Source of the DNA: Deltaproteobacteria bacterium
Lineage (GTDB): Bacteria; Desulfobacterota_B; Binatia; UBA9968
Assembly: GCA_005879255.1 (NCBI GenBank)
Contig: VBKY01000147.1
Span: 1 to 24,973 of the forward strand
Length of the DNA stretch: 24,973 nt
Direction of reading: 5' to 3'
The position numbers and the translations under genes are program-made. The stretch's first letter is position 1; every line of letters starts with the position of its first letter. The notes beneath the pieces are model-generated. The model had not been told where the DNA came from and ran no database searches. It saw only the letters and a list, made by a program, of their open reading frames with translations. Below, piece by piece: positions 286-13,999 of this stretch.

Positions 286-2475
286 CTATTTCGAACCCAG
301 CGACTCAAGAAGTTTTTTCGCCTCCGCAGCCTCCGGGAAATTCTGGCCCAATGCGACTGCCTTCTGGACGCTTTCTCGGGCGAGTTTTTCCTCACCGTTC
401 TTATCGTGGGCAAGAGCAAGGTGATAGAGAACCGTTGGATTTTGGCCTTTGAATTTTTCATCGCTCTCCTTCAAAAAGGCAATCGCGGTCGCATATATCC
501 CCTTTTTGAAATGGATCCAGCCCAAGGTGTCGGCGACACCAGGATCATTGGGGTTTGCCTCGCGCGCTTTCTGCGCCAAAGTAAGCGCGACATCCAGATT
601 GCCGCCGTGCTGGGAGTAATTGTAAGCGAGATTGTTTGCCGCAGGGGCAAAGTTTTTATTCAGGTCGAGTACTTTTTGATAATACCCGTTGGCTTTCTGC
701 GGCTGCTTCTTCATGTCGTAGAGCATACCGACCATCATCAGCGGCTGGATCGCTTTGGGATTTGTCTTAATTACTTTTTCATACTGATCGATTGCGGTAT
801 CGAATTGCTTTTGTGCGGCATAAGCGGTACCGATCAGGAAATATGCAGAGGAGAGGTCCGGGTTCAGATGAACCGCCTTCTCGAGATACTCAATACCCCT
901 CGCGTATTCCTTAATGCGGATACTCAGCTGCCCCAGCAGCTGATATATGGCAGCGTGGTTTTTAGCCTTACTTAGTTGCTGTTCGATGCGTTGAAAAGCC
1001 GCCTTCGGGTTGCCTTGCAATTGATAAACCTGAGCCATGGAACTAAGAGCGTCGATACGGTTGGGGTCGAGTGTCAAAGCCTGTTCGTATTCCTTCAAAG
1101 CCTCAGGATAATTTTTTTTAACAGCATAGACGGCCGCCATATTGATATGCGCCGCGGGATTTTTTGGGTTGACTTTCTGGGCCTGTTGAAACGTCGTCAA
1201 CGCCTGATCGGTCGTCCCTTTCCTTATGGCGATTGCGCCCTTCATCAATAGCGCGTCTTCATTGTTCGGTTGAACCCTCAAGACCTTTTCAACTTCCTCC
1301 GCGGCCAGCTCATGGTCTCCTGAAGCGAGATGAAGTTGCCCTAAAGTAATCTTCGGCTCGATCCAATTAGGTGCTAATTCGGCAGCTTTAGCGATGCTCT
1401 TTTTTGCTTCGTTGATCTCGTTTTGTCGTATCTGCGCTTGCCCGAGAAAATAAAACCCGAATGGGAATTGCGGCGCATCACGTGTCACAGCGTAAAGATC
1501 TTCAATCGCCTTTTTTGGATCATTTTCGATTAGATTTAACCGACCGCGAAAAAACAGGCCATCTTTATCACCCGGATTGGCCTTGAGAATATCATCCACA
1601 TACTGCCGGGCCTGTTTACGCTCGTTTTTGGCCAAATAGAGCTCGGTGAGGCGCTTCTTCGCAATGATCGAATCGGGCTTTTTCTTAACCAGATCCTGAT
1701 ACAACTTTTCCAGATCATCAAAGCGCCGCCTACTGGAGTAAAAGTTCCCCAATATATGAAGCAATGCTTCATTCTCAGGATCCCCCTGGGTCGCCAATAG
1801 CAATTCCTGCTCGGCTTTTTCCTGATTGCCCGTGCCAGCGTAAAGCTGCGCCAAGGCCACCCGTGCACGGTGGAACTTAGGATCGATCTCAAGCGTTTTG
1901 CGATAAGCCGACTCCGCGGCTGGATAATCTCTTTTAGCCGCATACACCTGACCGATGTCGAAATGGATCGCTGCCTGGTTGGGTTCCTTGTTCAGCGCTG
2001 CTTCGAGCTCTTGAATCGCCATATCCGGCTGCTTCTCAGCCATCGCGATCTGCGCCGCGAGATAATGTCCTTCTTTGGCCTCTTTGTCTTGTTGGCGAAT
2101 TTTTTCCAACTCTTCCTTAGCGCGCTTTGTGTCCTTACTTGCCGCATGCATTACGGCGAACTGGTAGCGCGCTTTGATGAAATCAGGCTTTAAATCCGTA
2201 GCACGTACTAGTTCTCGATAACCCGCACGTACGTCGCCCTGCTTGAGCAAGGCCATGCCGAACTCATAATGAACCTCGGCCGAATTCGGATCCGCGCGTA
2301 ATGCATTCCGATATTCAATGATTGCCTCGTTGATTTTCGCTTCAGCCAAATATGCTTTTGCTTTCTTAAGCGCTCGATCGCGTTTGACTTCAGGAGATCC
2401 GCCGAACTGGGTGTACGCGACCACTCCGCCACCGAGCAGGAGCAGCGCAACTATGCCGAGAAGGATTTTTCTCAT
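286..2475 (-). CDS. Membrane-anchored TPR-repeat protein of the exosortase/EPS locus
   Basis: This 729-residue protein has an N-terminal hydrophobic segment (about residues 4-24), then tandem tetratricopeptide repeats from about residue 35 to the C-terminus, roughly 20 by length. TPR arrays form superhelical scaffolds for protein-protein contacts, here probably periplasmic and tied to EPS assembly or export. Large TPR proteins (TIGR02917/PrsT type) are regular members of PEP-CTERM/exosortase loci, but those are usually lipoproteins. This one has no cysteine anywhere, so no lipobox, and must be held by its N-terminal helix if it is anchored at all. The ATG at 2475 is preceded by a strong GAGGAAAG ribosome site. 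It starts 37 bases after the epimerase stop and is the last gene of the minus-strand unit. The TPR assignment is firm; the partner proteins are unknown. Confidence 0.88.
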   Translation of the reverse strand: MRKILLGIVALLLLGGGVVAYTQFGGSPEVKRDRALKKAKAYLAEAKINEAIIEYRNALRADPNSAEVHYEFGMALLKQGDVRAGYRELVRATDLKPDFIKARYQFAVMHAASKDTKRAKEELEKIRQQDKEAKEGHYLAAQIAMAEKQPDMAIQELEAALNKEPNQAAIHFDIGQVYAAKRDYPAAESAYRKTLEIDPKFHRARVALAQLYAGTGNQEKAEQELLLATQGDPENEALLHILGNFYSSRRRFDDLEKLYQDLVKKKPDSIIAKKRLTELYLAKNERKQARQYVDDILKANPGDKDGLFFRGRLNLIENDPKKAIEDLYAVTRDAPQFPFGFYFLGQAQIRQNEINEAKKSIAKAAELAPNWIEPKITLGQLHLASGDHELAAEEVEKVLRVQPNNEDALLMKGAIAIRKGTTDQALTTFQQAQKVNPKNPAAHINMAAVYAVKKNYPEALKEYEQALTLDPNRIDALSSMAQVYQLQGNPKAAFQRIEQQLSKAKNHAAIYQLLGQLSIRIKEYARGIEYLEKAVHLNPDLSSAYFLIGTAYAAQKQFDTAIDQYEKVIKTNPKAIQPLMMVGMLYDMKKQPQKANGYYQKVLDLNKNFAPAANNLAYNYSQHGGNLDVALTLAQKAREANPNDPGVADTLGWIHFKKGIYATAIAFLKESDEKFKGQNPTVLYHLALAHDKNGEEKLARESVQKAVALGQNFPEAAEAKKLLESLGSK

Positions 2476-2512: not shown

Positions 2513-3457
2513 TTACTTCGCAATCATATTCTTGTAGGCAGCAACCGTTCGGCGCAGCCCTTCTTCGACCGTGATTTTGGGTTGGTAGTGCAATATCGCT
2601 TTTGCCCGCTCGATGTCGGCTAACGAATGGCGCACGTCGCTCGCCTTGGGCGCCGCATGGATCACCTGGGCATTGATCCCAAGTTGTTGTTCGAGAAGCG
2701 TAACCAAGCGATTGAGTGTGATACGCTCGCCGCAACCGATGTTACACATCGTGCCGGCCGCATTGGGCGCTTTGAGCGCCAGAAGATTGGCCTCGACAAC
2801 GTTGTCTATAAACGTGAAGTCACGCGATTGCTCGCCGTCGCCATGGATCGTGATCGGCTGGTTGGCCAGCAAGCGCGTGATGAATTTTGGAATAACTGCG
2901 GAATACTCCGAGTGGGGATCTTGCTGGGGACCGAAGACATTGAAATACCTCAAGCAGACCGTCTCTACACCGTATAGATCGTGATACAGTTTGCAGTACC
3001 GCTCCCCAACCAGTTTTTGCAAAGCATAAGGTGAAAGCGGGTTGGGCGGCATGTCCTCGTGCTTTGGAAGTACCTCCGTGTCGCCGTAAGCGGACGACGA
3101 CGCCGCGAAGACAATTCTACGGATTTGGACCTTACGGCAGGCTTCAAGGAGATTGATGGTCGCGGTGACATTAGCTCGATTGGTGGCAACGGGATCCGCC
3201 ACCGAGCGCTGCACCGACGGCACAGCCGCTTGATGAAGCACAAAATCCACACCGTCGACTACTTCTCGAGCTATCACTTCTTCGGCCAAGTCGCCTTTGA
3301 CAAATTGAATCGCCGAGCGCAGCGGTTCGAGGCGACGCGCCTCTCCCGTAGAAAGATTATCCACAACCCGAACCTCGGCCCCATCATCGACCAACCGTTT
3401 AACGATGTGTGAGCCGATAAATCCGGCTCCGCCGGTGACCAAAAATTTATTCCCCAT
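2513..3457 (-). CDS. NAD-dependent nucleotide-sugar epimerase (SDR, WbpP/GalE-like)
   Basis: This is an extended short-chain dehydrogenase/reductase of 314 residues. It has the Rossmann motif TGGAGFIG at 8-15, the SSSAYGD segment at 120-126 and the catalytic pair Tyr144-x3-Lys148 (YALQK). The blocks YFNVFGPQQDP, the GDGEQSRDFTF segment and DVRHSLADI closely match WbpP-type UDP-GlcNAc/GalNAc 4-epimerases. UDP-glucose or UDP-glucuronate 4-epimerase activity cannot be excluded from sequence. It would interconvert a cytoplasmic nucleotide sugar used for the polysaccharide. I chose the ATG at 3457 because GAAGAG lies 7 bases upstream; an in-frame TTG at 3472 is possible but would place that site inside the gene. 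It sits between the exosortase and TPR genes. Confidence 0.9.
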   Translation of the reverse strand: MGNKFLVTGGAGFIGSHIVKRLVDDGAEVRVVDNLSTGEARRLEPLRSAIQFVKGDLAEEVIAREVVDGVDFVLHQAAVPSVQRSVADPVATNRANVTATINLLEACRKVQIRRIVFAASSSAYGDTEVLPKHEDMPPNPLSPYALQKLVGERYCKLYHDLYGVETVCLRYFNVFGPQQDPHSEYSAVIPKFITRLLANQPITIHGDGEQSRDFTFIDNVVEANLLALKAPNAAGTMCNIGCGERITLNRLVTLLEQQLGINAQVIHAAPKASDVRHSLADIERAKAILHYQPKITVEEGLRRTVAAYKNMIAK

Positions 3458-3534: not shown

Positions 3535-5106
3535 TTATGCCGGAAGAATTTTTGTGAGTCGAGAATAGAGTTGAACACTCAGCAGTCGGAGCCGTTCTTG
3601 TGCTTGTTCGACCGACTCTCCATCTAACAAGGGAGTAGCGATTCTGACCACTGCTCCATCCGTCCGTCGTTCAAGGAAAGCCCTCTGAAGCTGACGAATT
3701 CTATTTTCGAATTCTCCTGAAAATGTGTCTTCTGCGATCTGGTACCAATATATTACTAAGCGCGCCGAATTTCCTTTGCGAGTTAGCATCCAGGTACCAC
3801 GAATCGACGTGTCGCCAGCGACTTCCACATTCGCGGGTTTGAGCCAAACCGAATTCCAATGCTCGGGAAAATTGATCTTGGGAGATCCGAGCCGAATACC
3901 CCCGGCTTGTTCGCCTCGATAGCCAACGAAAACTTCAATGGGATTCTCGTCTTGTGAAGTCGTGACCACTGATAATGCCTCATCAGCATTCGCGTCTTGG
4001 TAAAGATCTGGGAATTTTGATTGGACTAAGCCATGCGTTTCAGGGCTCACGAGCAAGCGCAAATCAGAATTGAGGTGCATCTTTTGCCCATTACCGAGCG
4101 AGTTCGCCAAGATCAGCGTCGCGGTAAAAACAAATATGCAGACCCCATGCGGCAGCCAGCTCGAGACCACAGACGTATCTCTCGAATCGAAATCCGCGGC
4201 AATCTCATTTCTTCCAGCATCGCGCACCACCGTTAGCGAAAACTTTCGGCGCAAGAGCTCGCCGGTCGAAATCAGCATCAGCAGCGCTAATAGAAAAACG
4301 GTCGTTCCAGTGAGCCAGTGGAAAGTCGATTGAAACACAATGGCGCCAAGGTTATAAGCCAACACGGCGATCACTACGATGCGAATCAAGTTGGCAGCCA
4401 TGGCAAACGGGAAAGTGCACACTGCTAGAAAAACTTTCAAACTGGCCCGTATCGGCAGGAAATAGGCGTAGACAGTACCCAAAGCAAATAGCGCAAACAC
4501 CGAGGACATACCGCTGCAGACATCGGCAACCTCCAGGGTCATGTTTGGTAAGTGAATGAAATAGGCCTCGACAAATACCGGGATGCCGAGAAATTCAAGA
4601 ATATTCGCGCCATGGGCCGCGTCCAGATAACGTAGATGATATGTCAGGTTTTTAATGAGTACGTAAGGAGGGGGGATCATCAACATGAGATAAAGGAGCG
4701 GGAACCAAAGAGGTTTGAAAAACTCCCTGCCCAGCAGTAGATAGAATGTGCTGGCCAGCGCCATAATCATCGACACTCGCGTGGAGAACACGTCTCCGAT
4801 GGCCTGTCCGATAAGTCCCAACAGCAGCGCGATTAACAAAGGGAAGGCTGCCCAAAAAGACGGCTTTGGTGAAATCAATTTGAGGCGATCTCGGCTTTGC
4901 CAGACCAGATAAGCAGCGATAAATGGAACCAGGAACCCGTATGAAAAAGTCTCATACCGGTACCAGTCGGCGACCAGTTCCGCGACAACACGGCCGTAAA
5001 ACAACGCGAACAACAAAACGATCGCGAGCCACTTGGCCCATCGGAGAATAGTCAAATTGCTAAATCTAAAACTGATCCTTCGAGGAGTAACGGCGTTATC
5101 AATCAT
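3535..5106 (-). CDS. xrtA: Exosortase A with C-terminal EpsI domain
   Basis: This polytopic inner-membrane protein (523 residues from ATG 5106) has about eight hydrophobic segments, then a soluble C-terminal region of the EpsI (DUF3485) type. Exosortases are transpeptidase-like enzymes that recognise PEP-CTERM tails. The expected triad is visible: Cys197 in ADVCSGMSS, Arg242 in ANLIRIV and His263 in FHWLTG. The fused EpsI domain (about 310-515) and the surrounding exosortase-A-associated families point to the XrtA subclass. The start is uncertain. ATG 5106 begins 17 bases after the dehydrogenase stop; an in-frame TTG at 5133 would overlap that gene by 10 bases, and neither has a clear ribosome site. 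Tight packing suggests co-transcription with algD. No PEP-CTERM substrate is encoded in the window. Confidence 0.93.
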   Translation of the reverse strand: MIDNAVTPRRISFRFSNLTILRWAKWLAIVLLFALFYGRVVAELVADWYRYETFSYGFLVPFIAAYLVWQSRDRLKLISPKPSFWAAFPLLIALLLGLIGQAIGDVFSTRVSMIMALASTFYLLLGREFFKPLWFPLLYLMLMIPPPYVLIKNLTYHLRYLDAAHGANILEFLGIPVFVEAYFIHLPNMTLEVADVCSGMSSVFALFALGTVYAYFLPIRASLKVFLAVCTFPFAMAANLIRIVVIAVLAYNLGAIVFQSTFHWLTGTTVFLLALLMLISTGELLRRKFSLTVVRDAGRNEIAADFDSRDTSVVSSWLPHGVCIFVFTATLILANSLGNGQKMHLNSDLRLLVSPETHGLVQSKFPDLYQDANADEALSVVTTSQDENPIEVFVGYRGEQAGGIRLGSPKINFPEHWNSVWLKPANVEVAGDTSIRGTWMLTRKGNSARLVIYWYQIAEDTFSGEFENRIRQLQRAFLERRTDGAVVRIATPLLDGESVEQAQERLRLLSVQLYSRLTKILPA

Positions 5107-5123
5107 GGTGTCGAGGAAGAACG

Positions 5124-6434
5124 TTACCAGCAAATGCCGCGGTATGCAGAAGGAGTTTGCTCCAGTCCAAAGAATCGCGCCAGATCCAACACGCGCACGT
5201 TACCATTTAAGCGCATCAGCTTGTCCTTGAGTCCGTCATAGCGATGACCCAAGATGATGAATTCATTTTCGGCCATTAGCTCGTCAAACGAATCACAAAG
5301 CAATCGACCGATGTGCGGCAGTTGTTCCTCAATAAATATCTTATTTGCGCCAACCAAATTATTTAGCACGAGGTTGGGATCATAGATTCTCAAATCAATG
5401 CCCTTTCCGATCAATGCCTCGGACAAGCTCACGAGGGGACTCTCGCGCAGATCATCCGTACCGGGTTTGAAAGTAAGTCCGACCATACCAACTTTCTTCA
5501 CGCCACTATCCACCACGAAATCAATTGCTCGCTGAATCTGCAACTGGTTACTCTGCGCCACTCCGGTCAGGAGCGGAGTTTGCACGTCAAGAGTTTTGGC
5601 TTGGTAGAGTAGCGCCCTGAGATCCTTCGGTAAACAGGACCCGCCAAAGGCAAAACCCGGCTTGAGATAGGCCGGCGAAATGTTCAGTTTGGTATCACGG
5701 CAAAACAGATCCATGACTTCGTGGCTATCGACACCGACAGCCTGACAGATACTGCCAATTTCATTGGCGAAGGTGATTTTTAACGCGTGAAACGTGTTGC
5801 ACACGTATTTCAGCATTTCCGCCGTTTTTATCGTGGTGTGGCAAACCGGACCGGTTCCCTCATAAAGCTTTTCTAAGAGAAAACCATCCGTGCCCTCGGC
5901 GTTACCGATAACGACGAAGGGCGGATTGTCGAAATCATGCAATGCGGAACTTTCGCGCAGAAATTCTGGGTTGGTATGGACGGTAAAATCGATTCCAGCT
6001 TTTTTTCCCGAACTATTTTGTAGCGCCGGAATCAGCATACTTTCAGTTGTACCCGGCAGCACCGTACTTCTGATCGCGACGACATGATTACCATTTTTCC
6101 GCTTGATTCCCTCGCCGACCTCCGTGATCGCGCTAAGTAGATGCCTATAATCGAAACTGCCATTCTTCTTGGCCGGGGTACCGACACAGACTAAGGAAAG
6201 ATCAGTTTCAACCACCGCCGCAGCCCCATTGGCGGTTGCGCGCATTCTACCGGCGCGCACGCTTTCCGCCACTAATTCGACAAGGCCCTTTTCGAGAACC
6301 GGCGCTTCTCCGCGATTGACCATCTGAACTTTCTGTTGATTGACGTCCACGCCTACAACATAGTTGTCACGGCGACTCAGCGCCGCCGCCGTCACACAAC
6401 CCACATAACCCATACCAAAAACGCTTATTTTCAT
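5124..6434 (-). CDS. algD: GDP-mannose 6-dehydrogenase (AlgD family)
   Basis: This UDP-glucose/GDP-mannose dehydrogenase family protein has 436 residues, the length of Pseudomonas AlgD. It shows the N-terminal NAD motif FGMGYVG at 6-12, CVGTP at 83-87, the TNPEFLRES substrate segment and the catalytic Cys267 in FAFGGSCLPKD. AlgD hallmarks are CVGTPAKKNGSFD, the GTDDLRESPLV segment and the C-terminal GICW, so GDP-mannose is preferred over UDP-glucose as the substrate call. The product, GDP-mannuronate, is a sugar donor for uronic-acid polymers such as alginate. The ATG at 6434 follows GGAAGAAGG almost directly. It is first in the minus-strand unit, with a sigma-54 promoter and a possible TATAAT promoter upstream. 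The rest of the alginate machinery is absent from the window, so the polymer need not be alginate. Confidence 0.9.
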   Translation of the reverse strand: MKISVFGMGYVGCVTAAALSRRDNYVVGVDVNQQKVQMVNRGEAPVLEKGLVELVAESVRAGRMRATANGAAAVVETDLSLVCVGTPAKKNGSFDYRHLLSAITEVGEGIKRKNGNHVVAIRSTVLPGTTESMLIPALQNSSGKKAGIDFTVHTNPEFLRESSALHDFDNPPFVVIGNAEGTDGFLLEKLYEGTGPVCHTTIKTAEMLKYVCNTFHALKITFANEIGSICQAVGVDSHEVMDLFCRDTKLNISPAYLKPGFAFGGSCLPKDLRALLYQAKTLDVQTPLLTGVAQSNQLQIQRAIDFVVDSGVKKVGMVGLTFKPGTDDLRESPLVSLSEALIGKGIDLRIYDPNLVLNNLVGANKIFIEEQLPHIGRLLCDSFDELMAENEFIILGHRYDGLKDKLMRLNGNVRVLDLARFFGLEQTPSAYRGICW

Positions 6435-6505
6435 CCTTCTTCCATTATCCTTTTTACGGCTCTTCCCCTTAGCAATACCTTACGGTCGGAAGCAAATTTT
6501 TAGGA

Positions 6506-6536
6506 ATTATAGCTCATCCTAACATACTTAATCCAA
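6506..6536 (-). promoter_or_regulatory. Possible sigma-70 promoter in the algD leader
   Basis: Reading on the minus strand, a perfect TATAAT lies at 6511-6506 and TTGGAT at 6536-6531 could be a weak -35 box. The 19-base spacing is longer than ideal. If real, it would give a short leader of about 65 bases for algD and basal expression independent of sigma-54. Confidence 0.35.
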
Positions 6537-6656
6537 AGAATCGGGATGTCCTGCCACAAGAGCGCCCGGGCTCACCTCTCATTCTTAGAAGTGTCTCCAA
6601 GAACTACAGGAAATCACAGCATTTATTGGTCCATTGGAGCTGGCGTTTAAATACTG

Positions 6657-6672
6657 AGCAACCGACATGCCA
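6657..6672 (-). promoter_or_regulatory. Sigma-54 (-24/-12) promoter for algD-exosortase operon
   Basis: On the minus strand TGGCAT (6672-6667), five bases, then TTGCT (6661-6657) match the RpoN consensus TGGCAC-N5-TTGCW. The invariant GG and GC are separated by exactly 10 bases. Transcription would begin near 6646, giving a leader of about 210 bases before the algD ATG at 6434. A bacterial enhancer-binding protein would be required. In exosortase systems the PrsK/PrsR pair is the known partner of RpoN, but neither gene is in the window. Confidence 0.72.
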
Positions 6673-6749
6673 CCCTAGTAATCAAGATGCGACTATTTTC
6701 GTTGGCCCTTCTTCACAGATTTGAACATCAAAACCGTGTATTCCCCGAA

Positions 6750-6759
6750 AGCACGTGCT
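6750..6759. promoter_or_regulatory. 10-bp palindrome AGCACGTGCT between divergent promoters
   Basis: This perfect palindrome lies in the 129-base gap between the two divergent sigma-54 -24 boxes. It is about 43 bases from the plus-strand box and 77 from the minus-strand box. Its position would suit a shared activator or repressor site. No known regulator site is recognised, and a single 10-bp palindrome could be chance. Confidence 0.25.
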
Positions 6760-6801
6760 CATAAGCTTCAGATTTACATGCATATTTTTCGTCGGATCGA
6801 T

Positions 6802-6817
6802 TGGCACTGCGCTTGCT
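6802..6817 (+). promoter_or_regulatory. Sigma-54 (-24/-12) promoter for the riboswitch-controlled secreted protein
   Basis: TGGCAC (6802-6807), five bases, then TTGCT (6813-6817) is an essentially perfect RpoN promoter with GG and GC 10 bases apart. The start site would be near 6828, about 20 bases before the c-di-GMP-I aptamer, so the transcript begins just ahead of the riboswitch. That spacing supports both calls. It needs an ATP-dependent enhancer-binding activator, which is not encoded here. Confidence 0.8.
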
Positions 6818-6845
6818 CGTTACTGATGACCGAATCCCGAAATGG

Positions 6846-6960
6846 GTTTCCGAAAAAGGCAAACCAACCGAAAGGCTGGGACGCAAAGCTTCTGGCCTAA
6901 CTCCTGAACTGTTGGCTCCAGCCACGAACTTCAGGACAAGGTAGCAGGGCCGCCGGAAGG
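6846..6960 (+). ncRNA. Cyclic di-GMP-I (GEMM-I) riboswitch aptamer
   Basis: The conserved GEMM-I core is present in order. GGCAAACC (6858-6865) is followed by a GAAA tetraloop (6870-6873) capping a short stem, then GGGACGCAAAGC (6878-6889) and GGCCTAA (6894-6900) as the tetraloop-receptor strand. An extended arm follows, closed by CTCCTGAA and TTCAGGA with an inner TGGCT/AGCCA hairpin, and then GGTAGCAGGGC (6940-6950). The closing stem pairs TTCCG (6848-6852) with CGGAA (6954-6958). This class binds cyclic di-GMP and commonly controls matrix, motility and surface genes. It lies between a sigma-54 start near 6828 and the GTG start at 7026. Confidence 0.93.
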
Positions 6961-6993
6961 ACACACACTGCCCGCTCAGTTTGTGCAACTTCC
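6955..6993 (+). promoter_or_regulatory. Hairpin mutually exclusive with riboswitch closing stem (expression platform)
   Basis: GGAAG (6955-6959) can pair with CTTCC (6989-6993). Inside this, CACACACTG (6962-6970) pairs with CAGTTTGTG (6977-6985) apart from one C-U mismatch, around the loop CCCGCT. The outer strand is the same GGAA that closes the aptamer stem, so the two structures compete. A T-run (TTTTT) lies some 14 bases after the hairpin rather than directly behind it. Whether it acts on transcription or on access to the GGGGG ribosome site near 7016-7020 is open. Confidence 0.55.
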
Positions 6994-7025
6994 TCTGTTC
7001 CAGATTTTTCATAGCAGGGGGTAAT

Positions 7026-8912
7026 GTGCGTTGCTGCTTATCTAAATTTTTACTTTTTAGCTTTTTAGTCATTCTTTCCGTTGCGACCCTATCACTATTC
7101 TCCGAAGATCAGGCAACAGCTGCGACTCTGCAACTCTCGTGGGCCGACAATTCTTCCGATGAAACCGGCTTCCATGTCGAGCGAAAACTTGGCGTCGCCG
7201 GCGAGTATAGCGTCATTGCAACGACTGACGCCGATGTGACTTCGTATGATGACTCGAGCTTGGCGGACAATACAACTTACTGTTATCGCGTAAATGCGTT
7301 CAATAGCGCGGGCAGCTCCCCTTACGCGCCCGAGCTTTGCGCTACGACACCGGCGGCGCCCATCGCCACGTTCAATTTAACCGTTTCGTCTCAAGGCAGC
7401 GGCACGATCACCAGCGCTCCTGCGGGAATTAATTGCGGCACGACGTGTACCGGTCGCTTTACTAACGGCGCGAGCGTCACTTTACAGGCCGTCGCCGCCA
7501 GCGGCTATACATTTTCCCGATGGAGTGGCCATGCTGACTGTGTCGACGGCTCGGTTACGATGAACACCAATAAAACTTGCACCGCTACTTTCACACGGAC
7601 CACTGCCCAAAGCCCCAAGCTAACCGTCAACATTGTAGCCACCGCAACCGCCGCCGGCACCGGTAAGGGAGTCGTAACGAGTAGCCCGGCAGGGATCAAC
7701 TGCAAGACCAATTGTTCGGCAAATTTCGCTAGTGGAACTTCGGTCACTCTCATAGCGACTCCTAATCCCGGCTCGGTTTTCTCCGGCTGGAGCGGAGACG
7801 CTGATTGCTCCGATGGAGCCGTCACCATGAGTAGCAGCAAGTCGTGTACAGCCACATTTACTGTCGATGGATACTTCATTAACGTTATCCTCAAAGGTAA
7901 CGGAAAAGGGCAGGTCACCGGCAACCCGGGCTCGATTAACTGCGTCACCGATTGCTCAGCACGCTATGCCACGCCAACTCGAGTCGCGTTGCGAGCCGTT
8001 CCTGCCCTTGGCTCGGCCTTCACCGGCTGGAGCGGCGATCGCAATTGCGGCGGCGGTGTTGTCGTCGCAAATGGCAGTACGTCGTGCGTCGCCACGTTCG
8101 AGCAGCGCCCCTCCAGCATTGGCGTTTTCAAAACCACCACACACGAGTGGCAATTGAAGCGTAATATTACGGCCAGCAATGGATGTAATACAGACTCGTG
8201 TATCAATCCGTGGAAAAAGAAAAACATACCAACCCTGGGCTCGGTATTGGTTCCGATCGTCGGAGACTGGCACGGATCCGGCGCCGATGATCTCGGCATT
8301 TACTCGTCTTCCACTACCGGTAACAAAGGAAGCCGCTGGTACTTGGACCGCAACGGCAACGAAAGATGGAATGGCTGCGACGGCGATCGCTGCATTCGCT
8401 CCTTTGGACAGCAGGGAGACATCCCCGTTGCCGGGGACTGGAACGGAGCGGGCAAAAGCAAGATCGGTGTGTTCCGACCGACTACCGGCGAGTGGTTTCT
8501 TGACCTCGATGGCGACGGCAGACTGGATGGTTGCAGTGTCGATCGGTGTCTCGCTTCCTTTGGTCAGCAAGGTGACCTACCCGTGGCCGGTGACTGGGAC
8601 GCCACCGGAACCAGCAAGATCGGCCTATTCAGACCCAGCACTGGTGAATGGTTCCTCGATCGGAACGGAAATGGGATCTGGGATGGCTGCACTGTTGATC
8701 AATGCGTCACGACGTTCGGCCAGCCAGGCGATCTGCCCGTAGCGGGCGACTGGGACGCCACCGGAACCAGCAAGATCGGTCTGTTCAGAGCCGCGACCGG
8801 AGACTGGTTCCTGGATTTCAATGGAAATGGACAGTGGGACGGCTGTGGCGTCGATAAGTGCGTCACGAGCTTCGGACAGGAAGGCGATTTGCCGGTGGCG
8901 GGGAAGTGGTAA
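7026..8912 (+). CDS. Secreted mosaic protein: FN3, three InlB-like repeats, Asp-rich tandem repeats
   Basis: The protein has 628 residues from GTG 7026. A signal peptide (about 1-32, hydrophobic FLLFSFLVILSV then an ATA-type cleavage region) is followed by a fibronectin type III domain (about 33-109). Three Cys-containing InlB B-like repeats follow (about 116-190, 198-279 and 283-359, with GxGxVTSxPAGINC and FSGWSGDADC blocks). From about 361 to the end are five FG-GAP/VCBS-like units with the pattern IGLFRPSTGEWFLD, an Asp/Asn-rich loop such as DLDGDG, and paired cysteines. It is probably an extracellular adhesin or matrix protein; no enzyme motif or PEP-CTERM tail is seen. GGGGG lies 5 bases before the GTG. 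A TTG at 6981 would start inside the regulatory hairpin and is disfavoured. Expression should respond to c-di-GMP. Confidence 0.85.
   Translation: MRCCLSKFLLFSFLVILSVATLSLFSEDQATAATLQLSWADNSSDETGFHVERKLGVAGEYSVIATTDADVTSYDDSSLADNTTYCYRVNAFNSAGSSPYAPELCATTPAAPIATFNLTVSSQGSGTITSAPAGINCGTTCTGRFTNGASVTLQAVAASGYTFSRWSGHADCVDGSVTMNTNKTCTATFTRTTAQSPKLTVNIVATATAAGTGKGVVTSSPAGINCKTNCSANFASGTSVTLIATPNPGSVFSGWSGDADCSDGAVTMSSSKSCTATFTVDGYFINVILKGNGKGQVTGNPGSINCVTDCSARYATPTRVALRAVPALGSAFTGWSGDRNCGGGVVVANGSTSCVATFEQRPSSIGVFKTTTHEWQLKRNITASNGCNTDSCINPWKKKNIPTLGSVLVPIVGDWHGSGADDLGIYSSSTTGNKGSRWYLDRNGNERWNGCDGDRCIRSFGQQGDIPVAGDWNGAGKSKIGVFRPTTGEWFLDLDGDGRLDGCSVDRCLASFGQQGDLPVAGDWDATGTSKIGLFRPSTGEWFLDRNGNGIWDGCTVDQCVTTFGQPGDLPVAGDWDATGTSKIGLFRAATGDWFLDFNGNGQWDGCGVDKCVTSFGQEGDLPVAGKW
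8265..8909 (+). repeat. 156-bp in-frame tandem repeats
   Basis: Units begin with GAC-TGG at 8265, 8436, 8592 and 8748. The last three are exactly 156 bases (52 codons) apart; the first is 171 bases because of a five-codon insertion. The 32-base stretch beginning GACTGGGACGCC is identical at 8592-8623 and 8748-8779, which indicates recent duplication or gene conversion. Each unit carries an Asp/Asn-rich loop resembling a calcium-binding turn and two cysteines (as in DGCSVDRC). Confidence 0.85.
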
Positions 8913-9057: not shown

Positions 9058-11475
9058 ATGAACTACCTGATTTTATTTTTTTTACTTTTATTACCCGTAA
9101 GTGCCTTCGGTTCAACGCTATCCGCCCTTGCCGCTTCGCTTAAACCAGGCCAATGGGCCGAGGTATCGACCAGCAACTTCAACGGCGGACGTGGATTCAT
9201 TGGGGATCCAAATTCATCATGTGATTACACCATTTCCTACACCGACAAGATGGTGTGGGACTCGACGACGAAAAAACTGTTTTTCCTCGGCCAGAGCCAC
9301 TGCAAAACTAGCTACTATCAGCTTGCGATCTACGATTCTGCAACCAACAGTTGGAGTGTCGGAGCCAGCACCCACACTTATTTTGGTCCTCTTGGCGGCC
9401 CATCGCATAGTTATAACAACATGGCTGGAGTAAGAAACGGCAAACTTTATTACAAGCTCTATTCCAGTAAAACGATCCACACTTACACCATAGCTACAGA
9501 TACTTGGGACAGCACGACGGTCCCGCCGATCAACATGGGCGTTAGTCCCAACTGTTGCGGGCAGTTGGATTATTTTCCAGAACGCGATTCCCTGATCTAT
9601 GTGGATGGCGATTGGGGCATGTTTGAATATACCTTCAGTAACAACACCTGGACTAATACTCACAAGACCACCGTCGGTGGCGAAGCGCCCATGGGGGATT
9701 ATGAAAACATCGGACGTTATAATCCGGTAACGCATGAATTGGCCTTTGGTGGTGGGGCAATCAGCGGGCCGGGTGTGCCGAATCGTTTTTACAAGCTGTC
9801 ATCATCAAATACCACTGCCCGACTTTCGGACATTCCCAGTGGATACACGCTTGCGAATTCAGGTATCACTAGCTCTGGTATTTTGAGTGTCGATCCGGCA
9901 AGCGGCAAGTATCTCGCGTTCTTAATTCATGGGAGTACTAGTGTTCCAGCCATTTTTACTCTCGATTCGACAGACACCTCAAATCCGTGGGTCCAGCAAC
10001 CGAGCTCCAGTAACCCGCCATGGTTTACTAATTCGGTTGATGGGCCGATTTTCGGCACCGCGGCCGCAACCATACCCGAATACGGTGTCATGGCGTTTTT
10101 AAATTTCGAGTTTAACGGTCAATCAAAGCTTTGGCTTTACAAATTCGCCGCAGCGCCGCCCGACTCCGCACCACCCTCCACGCCGATTAATTTGGTAGCA
10201 ACTGCAGCATCGCTGTCGCAGATCAATCTTTCGTGGACTGCATCGACTGACAACGTTGGGGTTGTCGGTTACAAGATTTATCGTAACAACTCTCAAGTGG
10301 GAACGTCGTCTACTTCGACTTATCAAGACACAAACTTGCAACCCGGCACCACCTACAATTATACCGTCACAGCCTATGATGCAGCCAATAACGTTTCAGC
10401 GGAATCGTCCGTCGTTAGTTCTACAACTCAGTTAAGCTCTTCGAGTCCAACGCAGGACTTTGCAACGAGATGCGCGCAATCTGGGGTAGTACGTTGCTTC
10501 GGGTTCGACACCAACGCCGATTTAGGAGGCCCCTTCGGCAGCAATTTCGGGTCCTTTAATAACTGCGAGGGTACTCAACCCCGTGGCTGTGGATTGCTGC
10601 CGACCATCGATAATAGTCTTTCGGCATCTGGCGCGGGATCTCTCAAATTTGTTATTCCCTCGCAATCCGGTGCCGGTGCATCAGGTCAATGGTTTGCAAA
10701 CTTTTCTCCCGATCTTCTCACTCGGTTTGGCGCTAATTCGGAATTCTATATCCAGTGGCGTCAGCGGTTTTCTTCGGATTTTCTAAATACCTACTATCAA
10801 GTCGGCGCTGGTTGGAAACTTTCCATCATAGGTGTTGGGGATACTGCAGGATCAGGCTGTACGGCGAGCACTACTGTTCCATGCGCGAGTTCCTGTACGG
10901 CAAATGACGTGGTTGTGCAAAACACGAATCTCAGGGGATTCCCGCAAATGTATAACTCTTGCAGCGGCTCCGCCTCACATGGTCCATACGATCCGTTTGA
11001 GATCGGTGGAATTTTCAACGGTAATTTTGATGTTCAATTCCAAAACAATCGTCCATCTCCTTACTGCCTCTATTCGCAGGGCCTAACTGATCCCAAGACG
11101 TTTTTGCCGCCGTCAGGGAATTGTTTTGGATTTTTTCCGAATGAGTGGATGACTTTTCAAATCCATGTGAAGACAGGTCCATATGTCAATGGAGAGTTTC
11201 AGAACAGCCACATAGATCTGTGGGTAGCGCGCGAAGGACAACCCAGCCAGCAAATATATAACTGGGGTCCCTACAATCTAAGTGCAGGTGCTAATGAGCC
11301 GTACGGCAAGGTGTGGCTGTTGCCATATCATACGGGCAAAAATCCGACACAGGCAACTCCTATTGCTTATACATGGTACGACGAACTGATTATATCTCAT
11401 CAAAAGATTTCGGACCCAGCAGCCTCTGGAGCACCTCGAGCTCCCAAGGCTCCAAGTAGTTTAACACTAAAATAA
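9058..11475 (+). CDS. Secreted kelch-propeller / FN3 / jelly-roll (polysaccharide-lyase-like) protein
   Basis: This is an 805-residue exported protein. The signal peptide is about residues 1-18 (LILFFLLLLPVSAFG). A kelch-like beta-propeller (about 22-365) has repeats such as MVWDSTTKKLFFLG, IYDSATNSWS and YNPVTHELAFGGG. An FN3 domain (about 372-458) follows, then a C-terminal module (about 465-790) beginning DFATRCAQSGVVRCFGFD. That module contains SEFYIQWRQRFS, NEWMTFQIHVKTG and YTWYDELIIS, which recall concanavalin-like jelly-roll folds of polysaccharide lyases. Catalysis is not proven: binding only is equally possible. The ATG lacks a good ribosome site but sits exactly at the signal peptide. 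It is a paralogue of the gene at 11828 and lies in an EPS locus, so EPS binding or trimming is the likely role. Confidence 0.8.
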   Translation: MNYLILFFLLLLPVSAFGSTLSALAASLKPGQWAEVSTSNFNGGRGFIGDPNSSCDYTISYTDKMVWDSTTKKLFFLGQSHCKTSYYQLAIYDSATNSWSVGASTHTYFGPLGGPSHSYNNMAGVRNGKLYYKLYSSKTIHTYTIATDTWDSTTVPPINMGVSPNCCGQLDYFPERDSLIYVDGDWGMFEYTFSNNTWTNTHKTTVGGEAPMGDYENIGRYNPVTHELAFGGGAISGPGVPNRFYKLSSSNTTARLSDIPSGYTLANSGITSSGILSVDPASGKYLAFLIHGSTSVPAIFTLDSTDTSNPWVQQPSSSNPPWFTNSVDGPIFGTAAATIPEYGVMAFLNFEFNGQSKLWLYKFAAAPPDSAPPSTPINLVATAASLSQINLSWTASTDNVGVVGYKIYRNNSQVGTSSTSTYQDTNLQPGTTYNYTVTAYDAANNVSAESSVVSSTTQLSSSSPTQDFATRCAQSGVVRCFGFDTNADLGGPFGSNFGSFNNCEGTQPRGCGLLPTIDNSLSASGAGSLKFVIPSQSGAGASGQWFANFSPDLLTRFGANSEFYIQWRQRFSSDFLNTYYQVGAGWKLSIIGVGDTAGSGCTASTTVPCASSCTANDVVVQNTNLRGFPQMYNSCSGSASHGPYDPFEIGGIFNGNFDVQFQNNRPSPYCLYSQGLTDPKTFLPPSGNCFGFFPNEWMTFQIHVKTGPYVNGEFQNSHIDLWVAREGQPSQQIYNWGPYNLSAGANEPYGKVWLLPYHTGKNPTQATPIAYTWYDELIISHQKISDPAASGAPRAPKAPSSLTLK

Positions 11476-11827: not shown

Positions 11828-13999
11828 ATGCGATATCGCCGCCCGTCATGGGTACCTTTGTATCATATAATTTGGCTTTTGCTCCTACCAATGTTGCAGA
11901 GCTTCAGCTGGGCAGACACTGCCCTTAGAGATTTGGCAGCCAAGCTCCAGCCGGGCCATTGGGCAGAATTAAAAACCAACGGATTCGACGGTGGTCGGCT
12001 TCTTGTTGAAGGCGCGGCATACATCATCCAATACACTGATGAAATTATCTGGGATTCATCCACCAAACGCCTCTACTTTCTCGGTGCCGGGCATGGAGCC
12101 GGAGCGGGTGCGGGAAAGTTCATACGGTATGAAGAGGCGACAAATACTTGGACATCCCTGAACAGCGGCGTTAACTATTTTCGCCCGTTCGGTGGTCCCT
12201 CCCACTCCTACAATCACCAGACCGTCAGAGCCGGTAAATATTACTACCGTTTATATCTATCGAAGCAAATCCACACGTACGACGAGGCAACTGACACGTG
12301 GAGCAAAGAACTTCCTGATCTGCCGGATGCACCGTATACTTGCTGCAGTGCTCTCGAATATTTCCCGGATATTGACTCGCTCATCTTTGTAGACTCCGAT
12401 TGGAGCGGATGGCGCTACGATTTCGCTTCGCGGCGCTGGGGCTGGATTTTTGCAACCAACGGTGGACCATGCTCGCCCGGGCCCTGCTACAAGATGAGTT
12501 ATGAAAACTTCGCGCGATACAATCCAGTGAAACATGAGCTTCTTTTCGGTGGCGGAAAAAATATTTATGTCCTCGACGCCAAAGGGAGGGTAACCATCAA
12601 ACGTCCCGCTCCAGTTAATATTCAAAACAGCGGGGCGTCCGGCTCTGGCATCGTAGTCGCTGATCCGCTGACCGGCACGTACCTTGTTTTCGGGGACAAA
12701 TCTGATGGCGTGTCCGGGGTATTTTACGAATACAACTCCACGTCAGATACTTGGACACTTCAGGATCCAAGCAGAAATCCTCCGTGGTTTCAAAACTCCG
12801 TGGACGGCCCCATTTTTGGTACAGCGGCCACGGCTATTCCTGATTACGGGGTGACTTTGTACGTCAATTTTGAGAATCCTCCCAACGGCAAAGTTTGGCT
12901 TTACAAGCACTCCTCTGGTTCTGTAACAACCGGTTTTCCAGCCGCTCCTGTCGCGACACCAAGGCTCGCCTCCGCCCCACCGTCGCCGCAATTGACCCCT
13001 CAAGACTTTGCGGCACGCTGTGCTATGCCCGGCGTGATTCTGTGCAATGGTTTTGATTCGGCAACGGATATTACCGGCGACTACGGTGACAATAAGGGCA
13101 CAATGCCGGGTGCTTCGGCTCCGCAAGTCGACGGGACCATTAAGGCAAGCGGCTCGGGGTCTTTGAAGTTTACAATTCCCAGTAACTCTCCAGCTAATTC
13201 CAGCGGAGAGTTTTTTACCAACTTTTCAAAAGACCTAAGCGTTCAATTCGGAGAGAACAGCGAATTCTACATTCAATGGCGTCAGCGATTCTCTCCAGAG
13301 TTTTTGAACACGTACTACCAAGGCGGCGGCGGCTGGAAACAGGCAATTATTACCACCGGTGACAAGCCTGGATGCAATTCTCGCGCGACGGCACGCGGCT
13401 TCTGTTATCCGTCCTGCGTCGCGACAACGATTGTGATCCAAAATACAAATCAGCGGGGATTCACGCAGCTTTATAATTCGTGCACCGGATCAGCGTCCCA
13501 CGGTCCCTATACCGGTTTTGAAGAGACCATCAACAAAGGTGCAGACATTAAGTTACAAAATGCTCGTCCAAACCCGTACTGTTTATACTCGCAGCAAAGC
13601 ACAAAACCGCCCTCATTTTTCCCACCCAAAGGCAATTGTTTTGGTTATTTTCCAAACGAGTGGATGACTTTTCAGATTCACGTAAAGGTAGGCCCGCGCG
13701 ACGGCGATGAATTCAAGAATAGTTATGTCGAACTGTGGATCGCCAGGGAGGGGAAGCCCTCCGAGCAGGTTTTTAATTGGGGACCATATAACCTTTCAGC
13801 CGGGCCGGCAAACGAGAACCAACGATATGGCAAAATCTGGTTGCTCCCCTACCATACGGGCAAAGACCCCAACCAAATCCACCCGATCGGCTATACTTGG
13901 TACGATGAGTTGATCGTATCTCGGCAAAAAATTCCAGATCCTCCAGCCTCCCGCTCGGACCAAACTTCCAAAGACGCCGATACCGTAAACACGAGGTAA
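11828..13999 (+). CDS. Secreted kelch-propeller / jelly-roll (polysaccharide-lyase-like) protein, FN3-less paralogue
   Basis: This 723-residue exported protein is paralogous to its neighbour throughout. The signal peptide is about residues 1-29 (IIWLLLLPMLQSFSWA). A kelch-like propeller (about 30-375) shares blocks such as FGGPSHSYN, NPPWF and NSVDGPIFGTAA with the first copy. Where the first copy has an FN3 domain, this one has only a short Pro/Ala-rich linker (about 380-400). The C-terminal jelly-roll module (about 405-710) has SEFYIQWRQRFS, GNCFGYFPNEWMTFQIHVK and YTWYDELIVS. The ATG at 11828 follows GGAGG with an 8-base spacer, a much better ribosome site than the first copy has. It ends 49 bases before the convergent FkbM gene. 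Polysaccharide binding or cleavage is inferred, not shown. Confidence 0.82.
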   Translation: MRYRRPSWVPLYHIIWLLLLPMLQSFSWADTALRDLAAKLQPGHWAELKTNGFDGGRLLVEGAAYIIQYTDEIIWDSSTKRLYFLGAGHGAGAGAGKFIRYEEATNTWTSLNSGVNYFRPFGGPSHSYNHQTVRAGKYYYRLYLSKQIHTYDEATDTWSKELPDLPDAPYTCCSALEYFPDIDSLIFVDSDWSGWRYDFASRRWGWIFATNGGPCSPGPCYKMSYENFARYNPVKHELLFGGGKNIYVLDAKGRVTIKRPAPVNIQNSGASGSGIVVADPLTGTYLVFGDKSDGVSGVFYEYNSTSDTWTLQDPSRNPPWFQNSVDGPIFGTAATAIPDYGVTLYVNFENPPNGKVWLYKHSSGSVTTGFPAAPVATPRLASAPPSPQLTPQDFAARCAMPGVILCNGFDSATDITGDYGDNKGTMPGASAPQVDGTIKASGSGSLKFTIPSNSPANSSGEFFTNFSKDLSVQFGENSEFYIQWRQRFSPEFLNTYYQGGGGWKQAIITTGDKPGCNSRATARGFCYPSCVATTIVIQNTNQRGFTQLYNSCTGSASHGPYTGFEETINKGADIKLQNARPNPYCLYSQQSTKPPSFFPPKGNCFGYFPNEWMTFQIHVKVGPRDGDEFKNSYVELWIAREGKPSEQVFNWGPYNLSAGPANENQRYGKIWLLPYHTGKDPNQIHPIGYTWYDELIVSRQKIPDPPASRSDQTSKDADTVNTR

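Follow-up and report, generated by a model that had tools for sequence, protein, structure and literature searches.

Organization of the locus

The DNA analysed here (the window, 24,973 nucleotides) contains genes for an exosortase and for exopolysaccharide (EPS) synthesis on both sides of a gene for a secreted-looking repeat protein. On the left side, the minus strand encodes a UDP-glucose dehydrogenase family protein (UGDH, 5124..6434, assigned by Pfam and NCBIfam) as the first member of a divergent operon, an exosortase-EpsI fusion (3535..5133, TIGR02602 and TIGR02914 above cut-off), an epimerase and a PrsT-type TPR protein (286..2475, TIGR02917 with 363.6 bits, cut-off 312.2). The fusion passes the general exosortase models and none of the listed typed models (XrtW 268 bits, cut-off 425) and may therefore be of an untyped kind. 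Two features of the Prs/PEP-CTERM regulon, the exosortase (TIGR02602) and PrsT (TIGR02917), are both encoded in the locus above cut-off. Despite this, no PEP-CTERM match was obtained among the 16 window proteins scanned with Pfam, and PrsK-PrsR were not among the window genes scanned. On the right side, two related secreted-looking proteins are followed by EPS genes, which include a TIGR03087 glycosyltransferase and a TIGR03097 O-ligase-like protein, both above cut-off. These secreted-looking proteins (9058-11475 and 11828-13999, plus strand) share their N-terminal and C-terminal parts as judged by eye, and the second had no Pfam match at E 0.001.

The target gene (7026..8912, plus strand) encodes 628 amino acids with a hydrophobic N-terminus, a weak fn3 match, InlB B-repeats and C-terminal repeats, as seen from Pfam, the translation and the homologues. 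The GTG start codon at 7026 is preceded by AGCAGGGGGTAAT, in agreement with the start and ribosome-binding site that had been proposed from the sequence alone. The N-terminus looks by eye like a signal peptide. The InlB B-repeats have an E-value of 8.6e-25, the fn3 match stays below the threshold of Pfam (22.4 bits, under 25), and a PEP-CTERM tail is absent by eye. Homologues reach 94% identity, one of 79% belongs to Candidatus Binatia, and those of about 50% come from Binatia, Alphaproteobacteria and Deltaproteobacteria; a Binatota-type genome is therefore the probable source of the window. The secreted-looking InlB-repeat product and the surrounding EPS and exosortase genes uphold the earlier description of a secreted repeat protein in an EPS locus.

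Two divergent sigma-54 sites and a c-di-GMP-I-class aptamer

The intergenic region 6435-7025 holds two divergent sigma-54 sites. The first, TGGCACTGCGCTTGCT (6802..6817, plus strand), has the GG and GC of the -24/-12 elements at the correct spacing and matches the consensus exactly; the sequence-only reading had called it near-perfect. It is the sole exact TGGCAC-N5-TTGCT match in the whole window (about 25 kb), and the exact motif occurred in 5/100 dinucleotide shuffles of the whole window (shuffle mean 0.05). Transcription is predicted to start near 6828, 12 nt past the GC. The second site, TGGCATGTCGGTTGCT (TGGCAT-N5-TTGCT, 6657..6672, minus strand), which the sequence-only reading had not reported, faces the UGDH-exosortase operon and has one mismatch to the TGGCAC form and none to the TGGCAY form. 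The two sites are 129 bp apart and could share an activator, for which the stretch between them (6673..6801) is a possible binding region. No activator site was identified in this stretch; a single hexamer of the TTTACA type occurs in it, at 6773 and thus at a distance of 23 nt from the -24 box. A consensus scan of both strands of 6400-7100 found no sigma-70-like promoter.

The aptamer begins 31 nt past the sigma-54 site. Rfam assigned 6849-6958 to RF03167 (c-di-GMP-I-GGC) as the best family (64.5 bits, gathering score 59, E 2.3e-13), and inspection extended the P1 helix by one pair, so that UUCCG at 6848-6852 pairs with CGGAA at 6954-6958 and the aptamer spans 6848..6958 on the plus strand. 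One overlapping match of the same clan, its family unnamed in the Rfam output, also exceeded its own gathering score and is probably RF01051, which belongs with RF03167 to clan CL00126. The covariance search that had been suggested for this region thus confirmed the aptamer proposed at 6846-6960 and corrected its assignment from RF01051 to RF03167.

Recurrence of the sigma-54 site upstream of aptamers

To assess how far this layout recurs, we used 106 RF03167 loci whose genomes had been selected without regard to sigma-54; 104 of these loci had 75 nt upstream of the aptamer. This set comprised 27/30 initial loci and 79 further ones, the best by E-value among the matches listed; L102, L104, L105 and one row of genome G019 were left out, sigma-54 having been the reason for including their genomes, and one row of G113 was missed. 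Some genomes contribute more than one locus, and L135 has its target gene in common with L222. Among the matches listed, an exact sigma-54 site lay within 75 nt upstream on the coding strand of 11/104 aptamers (0.0 in shuffles), and allowing up to one mismatch outside the fixed GG and GC raised this number to 17/104 (0.055 in shuffles). The sites among these matches peaked 25-49 nt upstream of the aptamer, and the opposite strand held one such site within 75 nt. Given 11/104 against 0.0 in shuffles, the pairing of sigma-54 site and aptamer is not accidental.

When the genome collection was scanned with a pattern combining the site and the aptamer core, 96 stretches were obtained, 41 of which were judged by eye to contain aptamers. 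Rfam confirmed 40 of these 41 units, with L051 as the exception, and found no aptamer at the site in any of the 12 stretches checked among the other 55. A regular expression run by script flagged 40 stretches; compared with the judgement by eye, it wrongly took L081 and L087 and missed L051, L065 and L078. Judged by record titles, the sources of confirmed units include Deltaproteobacteria, Desulfobacterales, Rokubacteria, Methylomirabilota, Acidobacteria, Brocadia, Omnitrophota, Ignavibacteria and Armatimonadetes bins. The unit in L049 belongs to the strain NaphS2. The distance from site to aptamer is 13-41 nt in the 40 confirmed units, a range partly set by the search pattern, and the base following TTGC is T in 33/41 sequences (the confirmed units and the window) though the pattern also allowed A. 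The proposal that a sigma-54 motif feeds a c-di-GMP-I-class leader was supported, and its occurrence in other genomes greatly exceeds the chance expectation.

Geobacterales-type carriers were rejected: with the strict pattern, 147 relatives of a Geobacteraceae genome yielded 0 true units. The two matches in these genomes were the seed sites themselves: L004, in which Rfam detected no aptamer, and L048, whose only Rfam aptamer lies away from the site. An exosortase scan of the genome-collection contigs gave no relative. Among 30 loci of P0001 homologues from other genomes (L268-L297, limited flank), one (L296) has a convincing aptamer-like core without a sigma-54 site; a regular-expression match in L280 was unconvincing.

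Several observations concern the aptamers themselves. Tandem aptamers stand behind one sigma-54 site in L039 (three, 2032-2447, minus strand) and L059 (two, 3132-3386, plus strand). Two RF03167 core types with a swapped pair occur among L127-L232, GGCAAACC with GACGC and GCCAAACC with GACGG. The Brocadia genomes G026 and G030 contain 38 and 47 RF03167 matches, exceeding the other 36 genomes searched. Eight Fibrobacter stretches (L010, L014, L033, L061, L066, L077, L094 and L095) share a near-identical sigma-54-like site with GGCAAACC about 36 nt past it, the next element of the aptamer being absent, and perhaps represent another conserved sigma-54 leader.

Putative target genes of the units

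The longest nearby ORF was taken as the target, which may not always be the true one. Among the unselected loci, 97 gave an ORF and 9 were dropped. At a Pfam E-value of 0.01 and among the matches listed, fn3 was found in 7/19 targets with a sigma-54 site vs 3/78 without (p 3e-4), and PEP-CTERM in 5/19 vs 7/78 (p 0.055). Our own FnIII HMM gave 8/21 vs 5/83 (p 5e-4), likewise among the matches listed; the Pfam counts are preferred because this HMM missed the weak domain of the window. When L127-L232 were divided by RF03167 core type, the same HMM detected FnIII in 10/26 vs 1/49. In the pattern-selected set, 32/41 units were used, among them L051, since no usable ORF was available for the other 9; Pfam assigned fn3 to 16/32 targets and InlB B-repeats to 7/32. 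On these Pfam counts, secreted adhesin-like proteins are frequent targets of the arrangement and PEP-CTERM proteins are occasional ones, with other kinds of target also present.

Candidate activators and the link to the Prs/PEP-CTERM system

Sigma-54 boxes have been described ahead of proteobacterial PEP-CTERM genes, and the PrsK-PrsR pair was named in the same work (Haft 2006, PMC1569441); expression of pepA is RpoN-dependent (Xia 2023, PMC9850573). In our data, three genomes have PrsR at no more than 6 kb from a unit. In G037 (L238), the unit faces away from genes for a TPR protein, a PrsK-like kinase, PrsR, two PEP-CTERM proteins, an exosortase and UGDH, a second exact sigma-54 site precedes the first PEP-CTERM gene, and the target of the unit is 43% identical to the window target over residues 11-150. 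In G004 (L298), an InlB-repeat gene stands behind a sigma-54 site with three aptamers in tandem; a second, divergent site of this kind is followed by PEP-CTERM, exosortase, PrsK-like and PrsR genes, beside which lies an HD-GYP response regulator with HHERMNGSGYP. In G130 (L299), a PEP-CTERM gene with sigma-54 site and aptamer is 2.5 kb from PrsR. By a rough Poisson estimate, 0.15 such proximities were expected among the 11 genomes with PrsR above cut-off (p 5e-4). PrsR above cut-off was present in 4/17 genomes with a unit vs 2/38 without (p 0.066).

PrsR as a universal activator was rejected, most unit-bearing genomes having no PrsR above cut-off (absent from 33/38 and 13/17); a PrsR-type regulator is perhaps the activator in some genomes only. 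The chance that another enhancer-binding protein acts here and that the exosortase neighbourhood is incidental is substantial, if somewhat short of even. PrsR exceeded its cut-off in only 5/38 and 6/55 genomes, all 93 genomes contain many other related response regulators (E <= 0.001), and the units have no common upstream box: the published end of the PrsR box, a TTTACA-type hexamer, was not enriched upstream of them (6/41, shuffle mean 4.0). A search for shared k-mers or inverted repeats among the window, L238 and L039 gave nothing convincing. Motif 1 of the Prs/PEP-CTERM regulon ends in TTTACA and is placed 32-92 nt upstream of its sigma-54 box; judged by the terminal hexamer, the window has no copy at this distance. 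Against such an unrelated activator stand the three close linkages of unit and PrsR and the fact that, in both L298 and the window, a divergent sigma-54 site faces PEP-CTERM or exosortase genes; a PrsR-type activator is retained as a candidate.

Predicted folding of the leader and probable direction of the switch

Two helices downstream of P1 would decide the state of the window leader. GGAAG at 6955-6959 can leave P1 to pair with CUUCC at 6989-6993 (6955..6993, plus strand), enclosing a hairpin at 6962-6985, and this alternative helix is present in the minimum-energy fold of the free leader. In the predicted fold, UCCUCUGUU at 6991-6999 pairs with AGCAGGGGG at 7013-7021 (6991..7021, plus strand) and sequesters the Shine-Dalgarno (SD) sequence. 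The predicted probability of an unpaired SD is 0.22 with the anti-P1 helix forced, 0.14 without constraint and 0.07 with P1 forced; the overall stability of the leader is ordinary (z -0.77).

Thirty relatives were aligned (alignment A1; L065 and other leader types left out). In this alignment, which leans towards the structure because its members were chosen as translational-looking platforms, 85.4% of the cells of the SD helix are paired and 8/10 of its pairs have changed on both sides (0/500 shuffles; slid versions at most 54% paired). A small hairpin competing with the SD helix is paired in 85.3% with both-side changes in 4/5 pairs, and 121/500 shuffles equal its number of doubly changed cells. 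A third helix, formed by the P1 3' strand and a downstream GCRCGG, is paired in 81% (slid versions at most 45%) and covaries weakly, as 98/500 shuffles reach its pairing. Removing the P1 3' strand, as the ligand would, increased the SD helix in 9/30 leaders and decreased it in 0. In a cruder comparison of 43 sigma-54 leaders including the window, occupation of the aptamer made the SD less exposed in 7 and more exposed in 3.

The sequence-only reading had proposed an AND-type gate. Its two inputs, promoter and aptamer, are retained; the conserved platform of the relatives points to repression on binding, so that activator AND NOT ligand is the likelier logic than a plain AND. A true AND, in which the ligand-stabilised P1 favours an open ribosome-binding site and turns the gene on, appears doubtful, with perhaps something over one chance in four. 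Matrix genes are commonly favoured at high c-di-GMP, 3/43 leaders responded in this direction in the cruder comparison, and in some other sigma-54 leaders (e.g., L171 and L208) a stretch that could pair with the 3' part of the aptamer is followed by a terminal T-run, an arrangement that by eye resembles a terminator overlapping the aptamer, which binding would prevent from forming. Both the direction of the conserved translational platform (9 to 0) and that of the window's own fold argue against it and for repression by the ligand.

A different cyclic dinucleotide as the ligand, or a variant of altered specificity, is unlikely. At the position where c-AMP-GMP aptamers have A, the window aptamer has, in what we take to be the correct numbering, G, and an HD-GYP regulator adjoins the unit in G004; HD-GYP proteins are normally c-di-GMP phosphodiesterases. 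In favour of altered specificity, the best-scoring family is the GGC variant RF03167, and c-AMP-GMP variants of the c-di-GMP-I class have been described (PMC7266159).

A chance -24/-12 match, with the transcript beginning at another place, is very improbable: one exact motif did arise somewhere in 5/100 window shuffles, but the enrichment beside aptamers is specific for position and strand, no sigma-70-like site is present in 6400-7100, and the G037 unit precedes a homologous gene.

Proposed mechanism

Our preferred reading, held with moderate confidence, is a composite leader in which an enhancer-dependent sigma-54 start is followed by a c-di-GMP-I-class aptamer, with activator AND NOT c-di-GMP as the net logic. 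Sigma-54 RNA polymerase would start near 6828, but only after the promoter had been opened by an enhancer-binding protein, which may be a response regulator of the PrsR type from the exosortase/PEP-CTERM system; the divergent UGDH-exosortase-PrsT operon is probably under like control. The nascent RNA would begin with the aptamer. Without ligand, the P1 3' strand would pair with the downstream CUUCC and leave the ribosome-binding site less sequestered; with ligand, P1 would keep its 3' strand, UCCUCUGUU would be free to pair with AGCAGGGGG and translation would fall. The output would be a secreted FnIII/InlB-repeat protein made beside the exopolysaccharide. Counted against this reading was that GEMM and FnIII gene pairs in Geobacter occur without this promoter pattern (0 true units in the 147 genomes).

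More tentatively, and with rather less than even confidence, the leader may belong to a recurring module that couples the exosortase/PEP-CTERM envelope programme to c-di-GMP in several phyla, as an AND-NOT gate with a conserved translational platform of P1 3' strand, anti-anti-SD hairpin and SD helix.

Relation to known systems

The window shares with the Prs/PEP-CTERM sigma-54 regulon (PMC1569441, PMC9850573) the sigma-54 promoters in exosortase/EPS loci, PrsT, and envelope or matrix proteins as targets. It differs from this regulon, which as published has no riboswitch, and also in that its target has no PEP-CTERM tail by eye and PrsK-PrsR were not seen in the window. Aptamer fold and core are those of the c-di-GMP-I (GEMM-I) riboswitches RF01051/RF03167; the predicted position behind a sigma-54 promoter distinguishes the window aptamer. 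In Geobacter, GEMM-controlled fibronectin type III genes have been reported (PMC2996986, PMC10599522, PMC13194489), and in G. sulfurreducens GSU1945 is near PrsR (GSU1940) and PrsK (GSU1941). Here too, this aptamer class stands ahead of FnIII genes, whereas the strict sigma-54 pattern was not found ahead of them in the 147 relatives of the Geobacteraceae genome. Methylophaga has c-di-GMP riboswitches ahead of PEP-CTERM genes (PMC12530212), the same coupling of gene class and riboswitch, in a report whose accessible text does not contain the words sigma54 or RpoN. The word riboswitch is absent from the accessible text of the Geobacter RpoN regulon paper (PMC2725144) and appears only in a reference in that of PMC12316311. 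No paper joining sigma-54 promoters to c-di-GMP riboswitch leaders was found in the literature searched, which included few subscription papers. Two well-known parts are joined in a way that seems undescribed in this literature and that recurs beyond the window.

A leader in which an enhancer-dependent promoter is combined with a riboswitch of the c-di-GMP class would be a compact, testable two-input device. Its layout of sigma-54 site and aptamer provides a genomic signature by which the remaining members of such a regulon could be traced, and secreted FnIII/InlB-repeat proteins of unknown role gain a common regulatory setting.
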